A stretch of DNA of 64,000 nt from Pseudoclavibacter sp. AY1F1 (GTDB lineage Bacteria; Actinomycetota; Actinomycetes; Actinomycetales; Microbacteriaceae): assembly GCF_002931075.1 (NCBI RefSeq), contig NZ_PSTQ01000001.1, positions 124,001-188,000 of the forward strand, in the 5' to 3' direction. Position 1 is the first letter of the stretch. Each line of letters begins with the position of its first letter. The position numbers were made by a program, and so were the translations under genes. This document shows positions 1,456 to 11,955 of this stretch, in pieces. Under the pieces are notes generated by a model. That model worked only from the letters and a program-made list of their open reading frames with translations. It was not told the DNA's origin and searched no databases.

Positions 1456-4400
1456 GTGTCACGCGTGTGGGGTCTGTTTCGTAAACGAGGTTCAGAGCCG
1501 GGCGACGCGAAGAGCGACGATCACGGCTCCGGCAAGGGTGCGCCCACAAACAGTGAGACGGAGCCGATACCTGATCTGAGTCCGGTGCGTGAGCGCCTCG
1601 AGCGCGAGCGTGCTGAACGCGCCGAGAACGACCGCGACGACCATGACGGTGACGAGGGTCTCGATCTCGGCCGCGATCACGAGAACGGGGTCCGTGCTCG
1701 CAATGCGGACGGCCCGAGCCTCACCCGCGGCAGGTCGTGGGTGGCGGATGCGGTTGCGCACGAACGCAAGACCCACCCCGTTCCCTCAGCAGACGAAGAA
1801 GCTCTCACCGCCCTCGATCTCGAGCGGGCCGAAGAGGCGAGAGCGCTCGAGGCCGCCGTTGACGCGGCCCAGGACTCCTGGTTGCACGAGCTCGCCCAGC
1901 TCGGCGGCCCATCCCCACTCCTCGATTTCGCCGACGAGCCCGGCACCTACGTTGAGCTCACGAGCGCGCACCCCGGCGGCATCGCGCCCTTCGCGGCCGG
2001 CAAGACCGTGCTCCTGTCCGCGCTCGTGCGCGAGAACTCCTCCTTCCGCGGGGCGCGCGACGCCGCCGACCTCATCGCGCAGAAGGGTACCGAGCTGCTC
2101 GCCGGCCGTGGCATGAGCACGATCCAGCTCGCCACGGGCTTCGCCGAGTGGACGCAAGACGGCACGCACTTCCGCGCGCCCATCCTGACGCGCACGGTCG
2201 ACCTGCGCCGCGCCGGTCGTGACTACGAGTTCACGCTCAAGGGCCCGAGTCGAGTCAACGCCTCACTCGTGCGACACCTCGCACAGCACTTCGGTGTGCG
2301 CCTACCCGTCGCTGAGCTCCTCGGCCTTGCCAAGTCGAACGACGCCTTCCTGCCACAGCAGGTCTTCGACCGCACGCGTGCGCTCGGCGCGTCCATCCCG
2401 CAGTTCACGGTCTCGGCCCGCGCCGTCATCTCGAGCTTCGGGGAAGTGGCGAGCGCGATGCTCCGCGACACCAACGAGCTCACGCATCCGGTGCTTCGCG
2501 CCCTCGCGGGCGACGAGGACGCACGCCAGCAGGTCTCGGCTCCCCAGCCGGCCGAGCAGCGTCCCAGCCCAGACCGGCGCGACCCCGTCGGGGATCGTTT
2601 CCTCCTGGACGCTGACACCGAGCAGGAGCGCGTCGTCGACGCCATCGCGGCCGGGAACTCCGCGGTCATCAACACGATGCCGGGCACGGGCCTCACGCAG
2701 ACCGTCATCAACGCGCTCGGCCTGCTCGTCGCCGACGGCAAGCGCGTGCTCGTCGTCACGCCCCGCTCGGCGAGCATCCGGGCCATCCGCGCTCGACTCA
2801 AGAGCGTCGGGCTCGAAGGGCTCGCGGTCACGCCCCGCACGCTCCGCCGCGACGCCATCGCCTCCATCTCGCGCAACGAGAAAGCCCGCAAGCCCGCAAT
2901 GCACGAGCTCGACGACGCGCTCGTCAGGCTCCGCCACGTCCTTGCCGACTACCGGGACGCGCTTGTGCATCCCGACCCCGCGCTGGGCGTCTCCGCGCTC
3001 GACGCACTCGAGGAGCTCTCGCGTCTCGAACTGCGCGACCAGCCGCCCATCACCACCGCTCGACTCGACCGCGACGCCATCGAGGCCATCGCGACGGGTC
3101 GCGACGCCATCGCCCGCCAGCTCCGCGCTGCCGGTGAACTCGGGCAGTTCAAGTACGGCCCCGACGACTCGCCCTGGTATGGCGTCTCGTTCGAGTCGAC
3201 GGATGAGGCGAATCGCGCGCAGGAGGCGGCGGTCGAGCTCGACGCCGGCACGCTCGTCGAGGTCATCGACCGCGCGCAGGAACTCGTCGGCCGCACTCGG
3301 ATGCGCCCCGCAGAAACCTATGGCGAGCTCGGCATCTACCTCCGCCTCCTGCTCGACCTGCGGGAGACGCTCGACCGTTTCCGCCCGGCGGTCTTCGACC
3401 ACTCGCTGACGGACGTCATCCACGCTACGAACCCGAAGCGCGAGAGCAGCGACCTGACGTCGGCCCGCCGGCGCCAGCTGCGTCAGCTCGCGAAGGACTA
3501 TGTGCGGCCCGGCGTCGTCGTCGAGGACCTCCACGAGTCGCTCAAGCTCGCGCAGCGCCAGCGCATCCTGTGGCACCGCTACGTCACGGACGGCTCGACG
3601 CCGACGGTACCCACGGGCATCTCGGATGTCCGCAAGTTCCACCGCGAGGTCGCGGAGAAGCTGCGCCTCCTCGACGAGCCGCTTGTCGACGCCGGCGCCA
3701 TCTCCCTCAGCGAGCTGCCGTTGGCCGAGCTGCCCGCCCGGATCACAGAGCTCGCGGCTGACAGCGAGGTGCTGCACAACCTCGTCGAGCGCCTGACCAT
3801 CATCGAGCGCCTCGAGAACCTCGGCCTCACGCCGCTCCTCGAGGACCTCTCCGAGCGCCACGTCGAAGCGGACGCTCTCGGCGATGAGCTCGAGCTCGCC
3901 TGGTGGCAGTCGGTGCTCGAGGATCTCCTCGACCGCGACAAGGCGCTGCTCAACGCGAACACGCGCGTCGTGACGCGCCTCGAGAGCGACTTCCGGGTCG
4001 TCGACCAGGCCCACACCGATCACTCCGCGGCACAGCTCGCTTGGCAGCTCGCCGAGGCGTGGAAGGTCGCGATCGTCGATTACAGCGAGCAGGCGGACGC
4101 CCTCCGCCAGCTCCTGCGCAGGCCAGGGGTGCCCTCCACGAAGCTGGCCCTCGAGGCCGGGGACGTGTCGAAGAGCATCGCCCAGCTGTGGCTGACCACC
4201 CCGTACGACGTGCCGCTCGTGAGCGAGCGCATCCACTTCGACACGGTAGTGCTCGTGGATGCGGGCACCATGTCGATCGCGGAGAGCATCGGCGCGATCC
4301 GCCGCGGCGACCAAGTCGTCGCGTTCGGCGACCCCGTCACGCAGTACCCCACGCCGTTCACCGTCGCCGTGACGCGGCCAGCAGCCGACAGCACGGACGC

Positions 4401-5715
4401 GTGGGGCTTGCGGCACTCCGACGAGGTCGGCGAGTCGGTGTACTCGCGCCTCGCCGAGTTCCTGCCGGAGCACGCGCTCACGCGCAGCTACCGGGCGGGA
4501 GGCGAGGACCTCGCGGAACTCGTCAACCGGCGCTTCTACAAGGGGCGCATCCGCTCGATGCCGTGGGCCGGCACGCTGCTCGGTCACTCCAGCCTCAGCT
4601 TCTCCTTCGTGGAGAACGGCACGGGGCTGCCTGACCCGATCACGGGCGGCGTCGAATCCACCGACGCCGAGGTGAGCCGCGTTGTCGAGCTCGTCGTCGA
4701 CCACGCCGTGCACCGGCCGCGTGAATCGCTCATGGTCGTCACTGCGTCTGCACTGCACGCCCGGCGAGTCGAGCAGGCCGTCTACTCCGCCGCGTCACGC
4801 CGAAGCGACATCGCCGACTTCTTCACGGCGGCTCGCGGCGAGCCTTTCACGGTCACGACGATCGAGCTGGCCACGGCGCAGTCCCGCGACCGCGTCATCT
4901 TCTCGATCGGGTTCGGGCGAACGCCCCACGGCCGCGTCCTCGCGAACTTCGGTGTGCTCGGCACCGAGCTCGGCGAGCGCGCGCTTGCCGTCGCCATGAC
5001 CCGTGCGCGACGCTCGCTCGTGATCGTCTCCTGCATCCGTCCGGGCGAACTCGACCCTTCGCGCATGTCGCGCGGTGTCCTCGGCCTGGCGCAGATCCTC
5101 GGCGAGGCCGAGTCGAACGAGCCGGTCTCAGCCGAGCCAGCTGCCGCTGAGCCCGCTGCCGCTGAGATCGACGCCGAGGGTGTCGACGAAGGCGAAAGCA
5201 CCGACAGCGAGGAACGAGAGGTCGCGGCACCGCCCATGCTGCTCGACCTCGCGAACCGACTCGAGTCGTTCGGAATGACGGTCGAGTTGTTTCATCGCGG
5301 ACGCATCCCGCTCGCCGCGGCCTACCGCGGCCGCGCGATCGCGATCGACACGGATGGGCTCGACTTGCGCATCGCGGGTTCTGCGGATGCGACGCTGCGC
5401 GAGACGCTGCGCCTGCGTCCTGAACTGCTCAAGCGCCTCGGCTGGTACTACCTGCGCGTCCACTCCTTCGAGCTGTTCGCGCACCCCGAGGCCGTTGCTC
5501 GCCGAATCGGTAAGGCACTCAAGGTGCCGCTGCCTGCGGAGACCGCTGAGATCACGGCGGGTTCCATGCAGGGTGAGCTTGGCGAACTCACCTCTGGCAG
5601 CCGGACGACCACGGCGGCTGCCGCGGCCGGCGCGAGCCTCGCCTCGGTGACTCTGCCGGACGGGAACCAGCAGATCGCTATCGCTCGACCGGGCGAGCCC
5701 GGCGGTGCAAGCTGA
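1456..5715 (+). CDS. DUF4011-type SF1 helicase/Vsr-like nuclease homologue with lost catalytic residues
   Basis: The 1419-residue protein has the order of a DUF4011 helicase. After a charged, low-complexity N-terminus (to ~110) comes a DUF4011-like region (~130-350). An SF1 ATPase core follows, split by a long helical insertion (~390-1200). An acidic Ala/Glu linker leads to a C-terminal Vsr-like endonuclease fold (~1270-1395). Key residues are missing. The Walker A is PGTGLTQT, with Leu413 where Lys is expected. Motif II reads VDAGT, with Ala936 where Glu is expected. The nuclease strand reads RIPLAA, with Pro1285 where the catalytic Asp sits. The motif VI-like MTRARR is kept. The frame is intact, so this looks like a maintained pseudo-enzyme. 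The GTG start is uncertain; another GTG lies at 1465. Confidence 0.72.
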   Translation: MSRVWGLFRKRGSEPGDAKSDDHGSGKGAPTNSETEPIPDLSPVRERLERERAERAENDRDDHDGDEGLDLGRDHENGVRARNADGPSLTRGRSWVADAVAHERKTHPVPSADEEALTALDLERAEEARALEAAVDAAQDSWLHELAQLGGPSPLLDFADEPGTYVELTSAHPGGIAPFAAGKTVLLSALVRENSSFRGARDAADLIAQKGTELLAGRGMSTIQLATGFAEWTQDGTHFRAPILTRTVDLRRAGRDYEFTLKGPSRVNASLVRHLAQHFGVRLPVAELLGLAKSNDAFLPQQVFDRTRALGASIPQFTVSARAVISSFGEVASAMLRDTNELTHPVLRALAGDEDARQQVSAPQPAEQRPSPDRRDPVGDRFLLDADTEQERVVDAIAAGNSAVINTMPGTGLTQTVINALGLLVADGKRVLVVTPRSASIRAIRARLKSVGLEGLAVTPRTLRRDAIASISRNEKARKPAMHELDDALVRLRHVLADYRDALVHPDPALGVSALDALEELSRLELRDQPPITTARLDRDAIEAIATGRDAIARQLRAAGELGQFKYGPDDSPWYGVSFESTDEANRAQEAAVELDAGTLVEVIDRAQELVGRTRMRPAETYGELGIYLRLLLDLRETLDRFRPAVFDHSLTDVIHATNPKRESSDLTSARRRQLRQLAKDYVRPGVVVEDLHESLKLAQRQRILWHRYVTDGSTPTVPTGISDVRKFHREVAEKLRLLDEPLVDAGAISLSELPLAELPARITELAADSEVLHNLVERLTIIERLENLGLTPLLEDLSERHVEADALGDELELAWWQSVLEDLLDRDKALLNANTRVVTRLESDFRVVDQAHTDHSAAQLAWQLAEAWKVAIVDYSEQADALRQLLRRPGVPSTKLALEAGDVSKSIAQLWLTTPYDVPLVSERIHFDTVVLVDAGTMSIAESIGAIRRGDQVVAFGDPVTQYPTPFTVAVTRPAADSTDAWGLRHSDEVGESVYSRLAEFLPEHALTRSYRAGGEDLAELVNRRFYKGRIRSMPWAGTLLGHSSLSFSFVENGTGLPDPITGGVESTDAEVSRVVELVVDHAVHRPRESLMVVTASALHARRVEQAVYSAASRRSDIADFFTAARGEPFTVTTIELATAQSRDRVIFSIGFGRTPHGRVLANFGVLGTELGERALAVAMTRARRSLVIVSCIRPGELDPSRMSRGVLGLAQILGEAESNEPVSAEPAAAEPAAAEIDAEGVDEGESTDSEEREVAAPPMLLDLANRLESFGMTVELFHRGRIPLAAAYRGRAIAIDTDGLDLRIAGSADATLRETLRLRPELLKRLGWYYLRVHSFELFAHPEAVARRIGKALKVPLPAETAEITAGSMQGELGELTSGSRTTTAAAAAGASLASVTLPDGNQQIAIARPGEPGGAS

Positions 5716-7541: not shown

Positions 7542-7979
7542 CTAGGCGCGCGTCTCCGGGCCTTCGCCCTGGAGCTTCGCGGGCGACTCCTGCTGCGCCT
7601 TGAGGAGGTCGCGGATCTCTTCGAGCACGTCCTTCTCGGTGACGGCGGCCTCGACGGCGGGCTTCGGCTTGCCGTGGATGAGTCGGTAGCTCATGTCGTT
7701 GAGCTTGTTGATCGGCAGGATGATCGCGAAGTAGACGACAGCTGCGATCAGCACGAACTGGATGACCGCGGCGATGACCGCGCCGAAGCCGATCTCGGCG
7801 CCGAGGATATTGACCGTTGCGACGGCGATGTCCTCAGCGTCGAACAGCTTGGCGATGATCGGGTTGAAGATGCCATCGACGATGGCGGTGACGATGCCGG
7901 TGAACGCGGCACCGATGATGACTGCGACGGCAAGCTCGATGACGTTGCCACGCATGATGAATTCGCGGAATCCCTTCAC
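7542..7979 (-). CDS. mscL: Large-conductance mechanosensitive channel MscL
   Basis: The 145-residue inner-membrane channel opens on membrane tension to release osmolytes on hypo-osmotic shock. The N-terminus KGFREFIMRGNVIELAVAVIIG is the conserved MscL amphipathic helix and first pore helix. A second membrane helix spans ~75-97, followed by the C-terminal bundle LEEIRDLL. The start is a GTG preceded by AAAGGGGAC; the methionine eight residues further in would truncate the conserved helix. Mycobacterial MscL is of similar length. It lies beside fmdB and the cyclo-ligase gene on the same strand, an order I associate with actinobacteria. Confidence 0.95.
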   Translation of the reverse strand: MKGFREFIMRGNVIELAVAVIIGAAFTGIVTAIVDGIFNPIIAKLFDAEDIAVATVNILGAEIGFGAVIAAVIQFVLIAAVVYFAIILPINKLNDMSYRLIHGKPKPAVEAAVTEKDVLEEIRDLLKAQQESPAKLQGEGPETRA

Positions 7980-8023
7980 GGGGTCCCCTTTCGTTTCGGA
8001 CCGCAGTACGGAGAAGTGTGAGT

Positions 8024-8338
8024 TCAGGAAGCAGCCGGTGTGCTGCTGGAGCTGGCACCGCTGGAAGCGGCAGCCGGTGCTGGGTCTTTCTTCGCGACCG
8101 AGGGCTTGGCCTCCGCGGCGCTCGTCGAGGACGAGGACGAGCCGGAGCTCTTCTTCGCGCTTGCAGCTGAGTCGGTCCGGTAGAAGCCGGACCCCTTGAA
8201 GGAGACGCCGACGGCACCGAAGACCTTGCGCAGCTTGCCTCCGCACTTGTCGCAGACGGTGAGGCTCGCGTCGGCGAACCCCTGCTGGATGTCGAAGGCG
8301 TTGTCACATTCGGTGCAACGGTATGAGTAGGTAGGCAT
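8024..8338 (-). CDS. FmdB family zinc-ribbon protein
   Basis: This 104-residue protein starts with the FmdB-type zinc ribbon MPTYSYRCTECDNAF, followed by CDKCGG, giving the four-cysteine metal site (CxxC...CxxC). The rest is a low-complexity Ser/Ala/Lys tail common in actinobacterial members. FmdB-family proteins are regulatory or structural zinc ribbons of unclear function. The neighbours mscL and 5-formyl-THF cyclo-ligase run in the same direction, and the three may be co-transcribed. Confidence 0.88.
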   Translation of the reverse strand: MPTYSYRCTECDNAFDIQQGFADASLTVCDKCGGKLRKVFGAVGVSFKGSGFYRTDSAASAKKSSGSSSSSTSAAEAKPSVAKKDPAPAAASSGASSSSTPAAS

Positions 8339-8397: not shown

Positions 8398-8976
8398 TCA
8401 GAAACGTGTGATCCCGGACGGCGTGACGACCCCATCAACGCGCTCGTCGTGCACCTCTCTCGGCACGGAGTCGACGACCTCGTCGGCGTAAACCACCGCG
8501 TAGACGGGCGGTCTGCCGGCCATGGACCCGAGCGTCCTGTCGTAGTAGCCGCGGCCCCAGCCCATGCGGTACCCGTCCGTGTCGATGGATGCAGCTGGCA
8601 CGATGAGGAGGTCGGCGTCGCCGAGTGCGATCGGGCCGAGGAGCTCGCCGACGGCCTCGGGGAAGCCGAGCTCATGGGCGCGCTCTGACTCGCCATCGGA
8701 GACCACCCAGTCGAGGAGTCCGTCCTCTCGGGTCACGGGCAGGAGGACCGTGATGCCCTGTTCGCTCGCCCAGTTCAGGAATGGACGCGTATTCGGCTCG
8801 AATTCGCCGGAGAGATAACAGGAGATGCGGGTCGCGCCGTGAGCCGCGACGAGGTGCTGGAGGTGCCGCGAGAGCTGCTCGCCGTATTCGGCGAGTTGCA
8901 GTTCACCATGGCTGCGTCGTTGCTGTCTGATCTCGGCGCGGAGGGCGCGCTTTTCGGTCTTCGCGTCGGTCGCCAT
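8398..8976 (-). CDS. 5-formyltetrahydrofolate cyclo-ligase
   Basis: The enzyme converts 5-formyl-THF to 5,10-methenyl-THF using ATP, a folate salvage step in the cytoplasm. The 192-residue length fits. An N-terminal basic helix (KRALRAEIRQQRR) holds the ATP-binding Lys/Arg. The signature GYRMGWGRGYYDRTL near residue 145 contains the glycine-rich substrate/phosphate loop. The ATG at 8976 was chosen because the in-frame upstream extension of 51 codons is Gln/Ser-rich and outside the family length. It is divergent from galU. Confidence 0.93.
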   Translation of the reverse strand: MATDAKTEKRALRAEIRQQRRSHGELQLAEYGEQLSRHLQHLVAAHGATRISCYLSGEFEPNTRPFLNWASEQGITVLLPVTREDGLLDWVVSDGESERAHELGFPEAVGELLGPIALGDADLLIVPAASIDTDGYRMGWGRGYYDRTLGSMAGRPPVYAVVYADEVVDSVPREVHDERVDGVVTPSGITRF

Positions 8977-9152
8977 GGCGTCGAGCCTAGCGAAGCGCCT
9001 CTGGTCGGCCTGGGACGCCTGCTGGCTGGAGCTCGTCAGGCCAGCTTGGGGAGCTTTGGGAGAACCGTGGCGCGAACCCGTGGGGGCGCTCAGTTGACGC
9101 CCGAATGCGACCGCATTTCGCGATGACATTTGCGGGCCATACGATACGGCCT

Positions 9153-10076
9153 ATGTCCTCGCGCATTACTAAGGCCGTCATTCCAGCTGCGGGTCTCGGG
9201 ACGAGATTCTTGCCCGCAACAAAAGCCATTCCGAAGGAAATGTTGCCGGTTGTCGATCGTCCCGCCATCCAGTACGTGGTCGAGGAGGCTGTCGAGGCCG
9301 GGCTTTCCGACGTCCTCATGATCACTGGGCGAAATAAGACCACGCTGGAGAACCACTTCGACCGGGTTGCTGAGATCGAGGCGCTCCTTGAGGCACGCGG
9401 CGAGACGGAGAAGCTTGAACGAGTGCGTGCCGCGACGAACCTGGCGGACGTGCACTACCTGCGTCAGGGCGACCCGCTCGGGTTGGGCCACGCGGTGCTG
9501 CGTGCTAAGCAGCATGTCGGCAACGAGGCCTTCGCGGTGCTGCTCGGCGACGACATAATGACGGGTGGCGGTTCGCTTCTCAAGCGGATGATCGCGGTGC
9601 ATGAGGCGACTGGTGCGAGTGTGGTGGCGCTGCAGGAGGTGGAGCCCGCGATGATCTCGTCCTACGGTGTCGCCGCCTACGACGCGGCTTCGAGCGTTGA
9701 GGACGGCGTGGCCGGCGCTGGGCCGGACACCATCCAGATCACTGGGCTTGTCGAGAAGCCTGCCCTCGAAGACGCGCCTTCCAACTTCGCTGTCATCGGC
9801 CGGTACCTTCTGCGTCCCGAGGTCTTCGCGGTTCTCGAAGAGACGAAGCCAGGTGCCGGTGGCGAGATCCAGCTGACGGATGCCCTGCAGGTGCTGGCCG
9901 CGCAGCGCGAGGAGCTCGGCGGCGTGGTGGGCGTCGTGTACCGGGAGCGTCGCTTCGACACGGGCAACAAGCTCGACTACATCAAGGCGATCGTTGAGCT
10001 GGCCGTCGACGACCCCAAGCTCGGCCCGGCACTCAGCCCGTGGCTGAAGCAGTTCGCCGAGTCCATCGGAGAGTAG
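9153..10076 (+). CDS. galU: UTP--glucose-1-phosphate uridylyltransferase
   Basis: GalU makes UDP-glucose from UTP and glucose-1-phosphate for envelope polysaccharide and trehalose synthesis. The N-terminal nucleotide-binding signature AVIPAAGLGTRFLPATK and then PKEMLPVVDRP are intact. VLLGDD binds the metal, and ITGLVEKP and GKLDYIKA-like elements (here NKLDYIKA) are present. The 307-residue length is standard. The start at 9153 places the signature at residue 8 as in homologues. rimJ follows after 12 bases. Confidence 0.96.
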   Translation: MSSRITKAVIPAAGLGTRFLPATKAIPKEMLPVVDRPAIQYVVEEAVEAGLSDVLMITGRNKTTLENHFDRVAEIEALLEARGETEKLERVRAATNLADVHYLRQGDPLGLGHAVLRAKQHVGNEAFAVLLGDDIMTGGGSLLKRMIAVHEATGASVVALQEVEPAMISSYGVAAYDAASSVEDGVAGAGPDTIQITGLVEKPALEDAPSNFAVIGRYLLRPEVFAVLEETKPGAGGEIQLTDALQVLAAQREELGGVVGVVYRERRFDTGNKLDYIKAIVELAVDDPKLGPALSPWLKQFAESIGE

Positions 10077-10088
10077 ACTCCGCTTTCT

Positions 10089-10736
10089 ATGAGCGCATCC
10101 GTTCCCACGCTGACGCACGGCCCGGTGTCGCTGCGTCCCATCAGGGTCAGGGATGCGCGTGAGCTCGAATCCGTGCTGCTCGCGAACCGCGAGTGGCTGC
10201 AGCCTTGGGAGGCGACAAGCCCGGGCGGGGGCGGGCGCTGGGATGTGCGTGGCGGTATCCGCTCGCTGCTCTCGCAGGCTTCGGCGCACACGGCTCTGCC
10301 GTTTGTCATCACTTACGAGGGACGATTTGCGGGTCAGCTGACCGTGTCCGGCATCAGCTACGGTGCCCTTTCTTCAGCGACCTTGGGGTATTGGGTGGCA
10401 CGCGAGTTCGCTGGTAAGGGGCTCGCGACGGTCGCGACCGCCATGGCGACCGATCACTGCCTCCAGGGTCTTGGGCTGCATCGCATGGAGGTCTGCATCA
10501 GGCCGGAGAACGCGAAGTCGTTGCGAGTCGTGGAGAAGCTGGGCTTCCGCTACGAGGGGCTGCGGCGCCGCTACATCCACATCGACGGGGACTGGCGCGA
10601 CCATTTCTGCTTCGGCGTGGTGCGCGAAGAGGTGCCCCAGGGGGTGCTGCGGCGGTGGCGCGAGGGTGCCGCTGATGAGGGCGAAGCGCAGGTGCCTCAG
10701 GCCGATTGGGAGCGGACCGCCCAGCCATTGCGCTGA
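10089..10736 (+). CDS. rimJ: GNAT N-acetyltransferase, RimJ/RimL type
   Basis: The 215-residue protein has the GNAT fold of the RimJ/RimL group, which acetylates N-termini of ribosomal and other proteins using acetyl-CoA. LGYWVAREFAGKGLATVA is the acetyl-CoA pyrophosphate-binding element. The following block HRMEVCIRPENAKSLRVVEKLGF is typical of motif B. It sits 12 bases downstream of galU and upstream of the SepX/GlpR-like gene, an order seen in many actinobacteria. The true substrate is unproven. Confidence 0.85.
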   Translation: MSASVPTLTHGPVSLRPIRVRDARELESVLLANREWLQPWEATSPGGGGRWDVRGGIRSLLSQASAHTALPFVITYEGRFAGQLTVSGISYGALSSATLGYWVAREFAGKGLATVATAMATDHCLQGLGLHRMEVCIRPENAKSLRVVEKLGFRYEGLRRRYIHIDGDWRDHFCFGVVREEVPQGVLRRWREGAADEGEAQVPQADWERTAQPLR

Positions 10737-10833
10737 GTGCGAGACCGGCGCCGGCAAGAAGTTCGAGATTCCCGAATCAGACACTCCGCGCCAATCGGCG
10801 GTCGCGGGTGCCTCCGCGCTTAATGTTGACGCC

Positions 10834-11955
10834 ATGCAGTTCGGCAGCAGTCTCGTCCTCGCCCTGGCGGTGACGCTCTGGCTTGCCTATTTCGTGCCGA
10901 CGTGGGTGCGCCGCCGCAATTACCTCGCTACCGAGCAGAACGCGATCCGCATGCAGCAGGCGCTGCACTCGCTCGCGAACACGAGCGATCTGGGGGAGGC
11001 GCGGGTTCGTGCTGATGGTCGCGGAGTGAGCGAGCAGGAGCGTCGCATCAAGCGCGCGAAGGCCGAGGCGGAGCGTGCCGAGCGTGAGCGCGACGAAGCC
11101 GCCAGGCGGGCCCTGCCCGCGGTTGCTGTGCCGCGTTCGGCCGAAGACCGGCAGCGAGCAGCCCGCGCGACCCGCCGCGGTCGCCTCGTGACTTCCATGC
11201 TCACCCTCGTAGGACTCCTTGCCGCCGGGGTCGGAATCTGGCTTGGTGCTAGCGCCGGCGTCTGGTGGGTTCTGGTCGCCGGCATCGTGACGGTGCTCGC
11301 TGGGGTCGCTGGCTTGCAGCGCCTCGCCCGCATCGCCAATGCGCAGCGCCTTGCGGCGCGTGTTGCCGGCGGGGCGCCCCGCGCTGGTCGTGCTGTGCGC
11401 CGTGCCGACTCGACGATCGACTTCTCGGTGAGCGACGCCGCCACCGTCGAGATTCAGCCCGTCGCCGTAGCGCAGGTGACGGAGCCGCTCGCGGGCTGGG
11501 TGCCGGTGCCCGTGCCGAAGCCGCTGTATCTCGAGCGTCAGTCTGTCGACGCCCTGGCGGTGGCCGAGGAAGATTCCGGCGCGCCGGGGCATCCAGGCCC
11601 CGACGGTCCTGGTGGTGGTGTCGAAGTGGAAAAGATCAACCACCTTGAATTGCTCCGTGAGGCGGCGCGCAGGTCCGAGCAGAAGATTCGGGATGCGCAC
11701 GCGCAGCCGGGGATTGCGACATTCTCCACTCGTGCATCCGCCGCGACGCAGGGTATGCCGCTCGCGCAGACGGCAGCGACCCGTGCCGGGCTCGCGCAGT
11801 CTTCGCCCGCTCTGAGCGAGGTCGTGCTGAACCCGATCGTGGTCGCTCCGGTCGAGAAGCGGCCGAGCCGCTGGGCGAGCATGGGCGTTGTCGAGGAGAT
11901 CGAGCCTGGTATGGGTGACCTGGACGCCGCGTTGCGACGTCGCCGCGTCGGCTAG
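10834..11955 (+). CDS. SepX/GlpR-like divisome membrane protein
   Basis: The 373-residue protein begins with a membrane helix ending in a basic patch (WLAYFVPTWVRRR). A charged coiled-coil stretch follows (~60-95), then two more helices (~120-136, 140-158) and a long hydrophilic C-terminal region. This layout and the N-terminal FVPTWVRRR element match the GlpR/SepX family of actinobacterial division-site proteins, which binds the MoeA-like protein Glp in corynebacteria. Position after galU and rimJ supports the call. The usual moeA/glp gene is absent here. The ATG at 10834 begins directly before the first helix. The call rests on layout and context rather than strong motifs. Confidence 0.6.
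   Translation: MQFGSSLVLALAVTLWLAYFVPTWVRRRNYLATEQNAIRMQQALHSLANTSDLGEARVRADGRGVSEQERRIKRAKAEAERAERERDEAARRALPAVAVPRSAEDRQRAARATRRGRLVTSMLTLVGLLAAGVGIWLGASAGVWWVLVAGIVTVLAGVAGLQRLARIANAQRLAARVAGGAPRAGRAVRRADSTIDFSVSDAATVEIQPVAVAQVTEPLAGWVPVPVPKPLYLERQSVDALAVAEEDSGAPGHPGPDGPGGGVEVEKINHLELLREAARRSEQKIRDAHAQPGIATFSTRASAATQGMPLAQTAATRAGLAQSSPALSEVVLNPIVVAPVEKRPSRWASMGVVEEIEPGMGDLDAALRRRRVG

Follow-up and report, generated by a model that had tools for sequence, protein, structure and literature searches.

Superfamily 1 (SF1) helicases joined to a Vsr-type restriction endonuclease (REase) are known from MTES_1575 of Microbacterium testaceum, a protein of more than 2100 aa that also carries a transglutaminase domain, a HEPN domain listed as active, and two winged helix-turn-helix (wHTH) domains (PMC3710099). 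A DUF4011 gene has also been placed, in another study, as a core flank of a defense hotspot in Pseudomonas aeruginosa (PMC10250203). Active relatives, and the concept of a pseudohelicase, are already known; in our searches of open-licence papers, we found neither a description of an order-wide conserved inactive form nor a described function for the core gene reported here. This gene, P0001, lies in a 64,000-nucleotide window of Pseudoclavibacter sp. AY1F1 (GCF_002931075.1, contig NZ_PSTQ01000001.1, positions 124,001–188,000; all coordinates below are window positions). It occupies 1456–5715 on the forward strand (+) and encodes 1419 residues in a single uninterrupted 4.3-kb frame, as a first-pass annotation made from the sequence had noted. 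Conservation is poor over the first ~135 residues, which leaves the GTG start uncertain. P0001 is very probably a non-hydrolyzing protein that is selectively maintained.

The best profile matches of P0001 are PDC-S37 in PADLOC (324 bits, E 4.9e-97, for a model without cut-off) and the antiphage protein ProA (NF058533, 309.6 bits). An intact orthologue, L048, reaches 820 and 801 bits with the same two models, and both P0001 and the intact orthologues fall far below the ProA cut-off of 1500. P0001 also resembles the DUF4011-containing helicase family Hhe (NF042953), at 161.2 bits for a cut-off of 2000, except that its catalytic residues are lost. Unlike PDC-S37 and ProA, P0001 lacks the Walker A Lys, the motif II Asp-Glu (DE) pair, and the nuclease Asp, and is a core gene found mostly at one place. 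With MTES_1575, after which the Pfam REase model is named, it appears to share the pairing of an SF1 helicase with a Vsr-type REase, while the transglutaminase, HEPN, and wHTH domains were not detected in P0001 with Pfam.

The motifs of P0001 were read by alignment against intact orthologues, using names that we take from the general SF1 helicase scheme. The Walker A sequence TMPGTGLTQT (residues 407–416; 2674–2703, +) is degenerate, and the alignment bears out the earlier assignment of Leu413 (codon 2692–2694) to the Lys position. For motif II, FDTVVLVDAG (4237–4266, +), the first-pass annotation had taken Ala936 for the replaced Glu, a misreading by one register: because the FD-to-GD stretch aligns without gaps to intact orthologues (FDVVIFDEASQI over FDTVVLVDAGTM), Val934 is the Asp site and Asp935 the Glu site, so that DEAS has become VDAG, with Ala936 matching its usual Ala. 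The corrected register is also supported by the intermediates VDDA, VEDA, and LDDA, which occur in other families. Motif III, GDPVTQYP (4327–4350, +), has Thr962 at its canonical Gln and a conserved Gln963 one residue later, and motif V reads ATAQSRD (4870–4890, +) for the VQGDERD of intact orthologues, its Q-G-x-E having turned into Thr-Ala-x-Ser. Tyr1012-Arg1013 in the motif IV region (4477–4503, +), Arg1183 in motif VI (LAVAMTRAR, 4984–5010, +), and Gln390 of the Q-motif are still present. In the nuclease, the alignment likewise confirmed Pro1285 at the catalytic Asp and placed Asp1298 in the Glu column. As read from these alignments, the Walker A Lys and the motif II Asp-Glu pair that an SF1 helicase requires are missing in P0001 (Leu413, Val934, Asp935), and both ATP hydrolysis and DNA cleavage have presumably been lost.

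These changes extend well beyond one protein. We aligned, residue by residue, 121 orthologues from 23 families (20 coded families within the order plus three from elsewhere, with a few partial rows; families carry f-numbers, f1 being the Microbacteriaceae). Lys was lost in most sampled families, and only 11 orthologues (two from f5, eight from f18, and one from f45) kept Lys plus DE, 10 of which kept all tested columns; the nuclease Asp and Glu were both kept in 17 of the 121. Among 80 named Microbacteriaceae loci, Lys and the motif II Asp were absent from all 80 and the nuclease Asp from 79. When all Microbacteriaceae rows were pooled (124 rows, or 113 distinct core sequences), both Lys and the motif II Asp were absent from every distinct sequence. 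The loss of Lys is thus fixed in the Microbacteriaceae examined, while the residue at 413 itself varies (G, L, A, V, or S), and the losses that had been described as three independent events in this protein are in fact common to the whole family. Ten residues were identical in 113/113 distinct sequences (P409, G410, G412, Q415, T416, N419, D935, Y1012, R1013, and R1183), as was T414 in 112; Q390 was also found in 113/113, although this column is biased, the named set having been drawn with a pattern that includes Q390. Residue 963 was Gln in 109 sequences and Glu in four. Across 4237–4350, the Microbacteriaceae motifs look as if re-registered, the Glu site of motif II (935) being occupied by Asp and the motif III Gln being shifted by +1 (963).

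Another seven loci were taken mostly from small genomes; they comprised four Microbacteriaceae without Lys (V, T, Y, and Y at this position), two f4 members without a P-loop, and one locus left unread (L220). Divergent members of the Microbacteriaceae included L221 (G412 to Gln, D935 to Gly), L222 (T414 to Val), and L224 (T414 to Ile), and the P-loop was mostly lost in families f3, f4, f9, f10, f14, and f20. By comparison, 11 long paralogues (1667–2355 aa) used as outgroup all kept motifs I–III and the nuclease Asp. The nuclease Glu is a weak criterion, because its column holds Leu or Met in 6 of these 11 paralogues with intact helicase motifs. A Lys relocated to position 406, in the VVK that precedes the P-loop in many Microbacteriaceae, was considered and rejected, since this position is variable and several intact orthologues have Lys there as well.

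Rooted trees indicate that the residues were lost rather than never gained, as the outgroup and the early branches keep them; such a loss is one mark of a pseudohelicase as defined for Deinococcus radiodurans PriA (PMC4504706), another being the absence of ATPase and unwinding activity in vitro. In the preferred tree (mixture model, 47 rows, rooted on four long paralogues), f45 branches first, followed by f5 together with f18 (support 86), and these lie outside a 28-row clade (support 94) in which Lys is absent from all rows. Lys was lost separately within f18, in L107 and in the rows L101, L074, and L100. A first rooted tree (LG+G4) split f18 and implied two losses of Lys, whereas the mixture-model tree rejoins f18 with a support of 99 and implies at least three, i.e., one at the base of the large clade, one in L107, and one or more among L101, L074, and L100. 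We relied on the latter tree for the number of losses, although this count is uncertain in view of the long, fast branches. The gene tree follows families, with 16 changes for 17 groups, which is the minimum, and quick trees gave one change per listed family except for f18 and f8. Since the Lys-plus-DE copies branch early in the outgroup-rooted tree, and 10 of these 11 sit at the same locus, beside mscL, an ancestral helicase-nuclease would have been inactivated long ago and then kept. Orthologues that retain Lys, Glu, and Asp, which the first-pass annotation had named as evidence against a non-catalytic protein, do exist outside the Microbacteriaceae; they represent the ancestral state on the rooted tree and do not overturn the non-catalytic reading of the protein studied here. 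L107 (f18), which lacks Lys, lies on a branch of 0.76, and its intact sisters L049 and L104 are 0.27–0.30 from the same fork; L107 appears to be a comparatively recent loss, and would form a useful before-and-after pair with these sisters.

Next, we evaluated how widely the gene occurs. Presence was scored by translated search with P0001 (E 1e-3), a threshold at which longer paralogues may have been counted in some genomes. Homologues were found in 247 of 249 Microbacteriaceae genomes, covering 85/85 genera, and in 292 of 297 genomes of the order, with exactly one match in each of the 10 genomes of the genus. A DUF4011 search of P0001's own genome returned this gene only (25.4 bits) and no second DUF4011 gene. 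The nearest named relatives are from Pseudoclavibacter, with 93–96% protein identity. In a sample of the class, 79/246 genomes had a match; beyond the order, f38, f25, and f45 alone were listed with the short form matched over its full length, and many of the remaining hits were partial matches to longer proteins. Of 127 loci, 125 had open frames of 866–1747 aa, the shortest being cut by a contig end, and the other two were 100-base placeholders. Frames of 1175, 1205, and 1221 aa were open in three genomes of 0.8–0.9 Mb; genome G132 held a gene fragment only (88-aa frame). Overall, this is a near-universal, single-copy core gene and not one odd protein. The sole family genomes without a match were G191 and G102; G191 is 94% complete, and a true loss of the gene is possible there. 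Some dead orthologues (L044–L046 of family f7, L055, L057, and L061) have frames of 1550–1700 aa, the extra length being either real sequence or an early start codon.

The gene is also largely fixed in position. The commonest locus marker is mscL (7542–8246, −), whose real start is probably further in than that of the listed open reading frame (ORF), the MscL model matching residues 90–216. Among 90 loci, 59 had mscL downstream, and in 56 of these it was encoded on the opposite strand. The second and third markers are a 5-formyltetrahydrofolate cyclo-ligase gene (5-FCL; 8398–9129, −) and what we take to be a galU-like gene (9105–10,076, +). At least one of mscL, 5-FCL, and galU lay nearby in 72/90 loci, and some of the remainder were short contigs. 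Two further families of the order have intact orthologues at this locus. Upstream, no gene was widely conserved, the largest cluster being present in 9/90 loci. An operon partner was accordingly rejected: the conserved downstream neighbors are mostly on the opposite strand, and no upstream cluster is any wider.

To evaluate selection, omega (dN/dS) was estimated by the Nei–Gojobori method with our own script, which is crude for GC-rich genes. Across four Pseudoclavibacter comparisons, omega was 0.046–0.067 for the whole protein, 0–0.009 for the dead RecA1 region, and 0.018–0.049 for the dead nuclease domain, i.e., both dead domains are under strong purifying selection. The sole usable control, a neighboring MFS gene, gave 0.092–0.096; mscL (0.200–0.829) and a LiaF-like ORF (0.246–1.495) were dropped for ORF calls that were too long, a low pS, or alignments that were too short, and the deeper pairs L133 and L135 (0.48 and 0.35) were left out for their high pS. 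Together with the fixation of the losses in the Microbacteriaceae examined, these values support the selection for a non-catalytic role for which the first-pass annotation had argued. We then measured family-balanced retention in dead lineages over 116 columns identical in ≥20 of 21 intact copies plus outgroup rows. The Walker A Lys (0%) and the motif II Glu (3%) were among the least kept of these columns, the motif II Asp and the nuclease Asp were kept in 40% and 27%, and G219, G228, N268, P242, D929, G1173, D1300, and W1330 were kept in 97–100%. Of these, G219, G228, N268, D929, and W1330 stood at 100%, and the four residues of the DUF4011-type domain (G219, G228, P242, and N268) at 99–100%. 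Motif columns were retained at 0.46 versus 0.62 for other conserved columns (one-sided p 0.009), so that loss leans to catalysis.

The helicase fold is predicted to be retained. The AlphaFold model of residues 136–1225 (alignment of 56 sequences; mean pLDDT 90.8) has a strand-loop-helix at the P-loop, and its Foldseek neighbors include SETX, Aquarius, Sen1, Upf1, IGHMBP2, and Dna2 (E 1e-14 to 1e-9); a profile built from 18 relatives matches SMUBP-2, Dna2, and Upf1. P0001 is thus predicted to contain two RecA domains of the Upf1/Dna2-like SF1B fold. The order of a DUF4011 SF1 helicase with a C-terminal nuclease, read from the sequence earlier, was borne out: a portion of DUF4011, AAA_12 (residues 994–1192 in Pfam), and a weak MTES_1575 match follow one another as expected. 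Specifically, residues 207–263 match part of the DUF4011 model (PF13195) at 22.0 bits, against a gathering threshold of 22.2, with three intact orthologues scoring 29.0–47.5 bits; residues 1284–1355 match REase_MTES_1575 (PF18741) at 20.9 bits, below the threshold of 38.2 and with Pro1285 for the catalytic Asp, whereas seven orthologues from other families score 44–122 bits. The C-terminal 194-residue piece was modeled with a mean pLDDT of 76.4 (>90 at its residues 31–70 and 101–130) and resembles Hjc, VRR_NUC, Vsr-like proteins, 3hrl, and 3r3p in Foldseek, with a best E of 0.048 and none ≤0.001. On this basis, the protein may be divided into a DUF4011-type N-terminal domain (residues 136–375; 1861–2580, +), a mostly helical insertion taken from the model secondary structure (476–905; 2881–4170, +), both with approximate boundaries, a weakly constrained linker (1226–1260; 5131–5235, +; omega 0.28–0.61), and a C-terminal PD-(D/E)xK or MTES_1575-like domain (1261–1360; 5236–5535, +).

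Taken together, we consider it probable that P0001 is a vertically inherited core pseudoenzyme whose activities were lost long before the Microbacteriaceae diversified, and which now functions as a binding scaffold. The ancestor would have been an active DUF4011 helicase-nuclease of the PDC-S37/ProA-like type, and ATP hydrolysis and DNA cleavage would have disappeared before the family diversified, the gene being passed on vertically in single copy. A rigid scaffold could then be built from the DUF4011 domain together with the helical insertion and the RecA and nuclease shells; it would hold another protein, a nucleic-acid structure, or the two at once, and would neither translocate nor cut. 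Such a role would be comparable to that of RecC inside RecBCD or of Deinococcus PriA at forks. RecC has an inactivated helicase fold and works beside RecB and RecD, and it is compared with P0001 at the level of its domains. The nuclease-like domain of RecC is devoid of catalytic features and shaped into a hoop for DNA (PMC1185551). PriA of Deinococcus radiodurans resembles P0001 in the lineage-wide change of its Walker A Lys (to Arg) and Walker B; it is reported to have neither ATPase nor unwinding activity but to retain DNA binding, with evidence of DnaB binding (PMC4504706). PriA differs in being a replication-restart protein of another helicase family. As to process, near-universal retention and presence in the three genomes of 0.8–0.9 Mb speak for housekeeping rather than defense, and we lean towards a housekeeping transaction on DNA or RNA in which the protein would act as a scaffold or a passive sensor.

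Several observations weigh against this reading. In nine pairs from other genera, whole-protein omega ranged over 0.009–0.285, with six pairs at 0.009–0.090 and three at 0.147, 0.203, and 0.285, and evolution has been faster in dead than in intact lineages (median root-to-tip distance 2.16, n = 81, versus 0.79, n = 11); both patterns fit some relaxation of constraint. The loss of conserved columns also reaches beyond the catalytic motifs. In dead lineages, many columns of motifs Ia and IV, which are expected to touch nucleic acid, have gone, which weakens the case for a helicase-like mode of DNA binding. The conserved neighbors, being mostly convergent, offer no operon clue to the function. 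Finally, the Microbacteriaceae P-loop is nearly intact except for Lys, and, judging from these residues, nucleotide binding may persist in the family; it would not be a function common to all families, because the P-loop is eroded in the six named above.

The near-invariance of the Microbacteriaceae pocket (the ten identical residues, T414, and Q963) is also what would be expected if P0001 were still an ATPase or a nucleotide switch working without Lys and DE, through a rearranged pocket in which Asp935 and Gln963 are each shifted by +1. We regard this as improbable, given that Lys, the motif II Asp, the motif III Gln, and motif V all changed together, that the pocket is further broken in L221, L222, and L224, and that most of the P-loop is gone in those six families. 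The nature of the nearest models (antiphage ProA, Hhe, and the defense candidate PDC-S37) would suit a protein still engaged in phage defense, namely a non-catalytic sensor or guard signaling to an effector encoded elsewhere. Defense genes are usually patchy in distribution, however, whereas this gene is near-universal, sits mostly at one locus, is inherited with families, is kept in three very small genomes, and has no widely conserved upstream gene, which makes a guard unlikely.

An inhibitor of, or decoy for, an active paralogue, as the first-pass annotation had suggested, seems very improbable: dead homologues can act in this way in principle, and some genomes elsewhere carry long paralogues with intact motifs, but the P0001 genome has no other DUF4011 gene and each genome of the genus yields a single match, leaving this suggestion unsupported. 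Least credible of all is a decaying gene heading for loss. Evolution is faster after the loss of Lys, as on the long L107 branch compared with intact L049 and L104, but the open frames in 125 of 127 loci, the omega of about 0.05 in Pseudoclavibacter, and the retention in all but two family genomes argue the opposite, and recent decay is disfavored by dN/dS and retention alike. A more elaborate version of the scaffold reading, which we hold to be doubtful, is that a defense-type helicase-nuclease was domesticated as a core gene at a fixed site in an ancestor of this actinobacterial order and its neighbors, that both activities were then lost in most lineages (at least three times) while the shell was selected to become a RecC- or PriA-like factor of chromosome or RNA maintenance, and that the Lys-free pocket of the Microbacteriaceae would be a non-hydrolyzing nucleotide sensor.

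Whichever role it has, the gene belongs to the core of an entire bacterial order and has survived in at least three genomes of 0.8–0.9 Mb. Its orthologues, many at one locus, form a series from intact to fully eroded active sites, through which one may follow how a defense-type motor-nuclease becomes a scaffold. Defense-gene finders could also label this housekeeping pseudoenzyme as anti-phage, because its best matches are anti-phage models.

Two further observations concern other reading frames of the window. Within the gene, an antisense ORF of 818 aa (2302–4758, −) has matches in 14 of 49 other loci, including 12 from Microbacteriaceae, as would be expected in GC-rich DNA if it mirrors the sense frame. 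Beyond the locus markers, a 530-aa ORF (10,363–11,955, +) matches SepX/GlpR divisome models at 53.7 bits, below the cut-off of 150.

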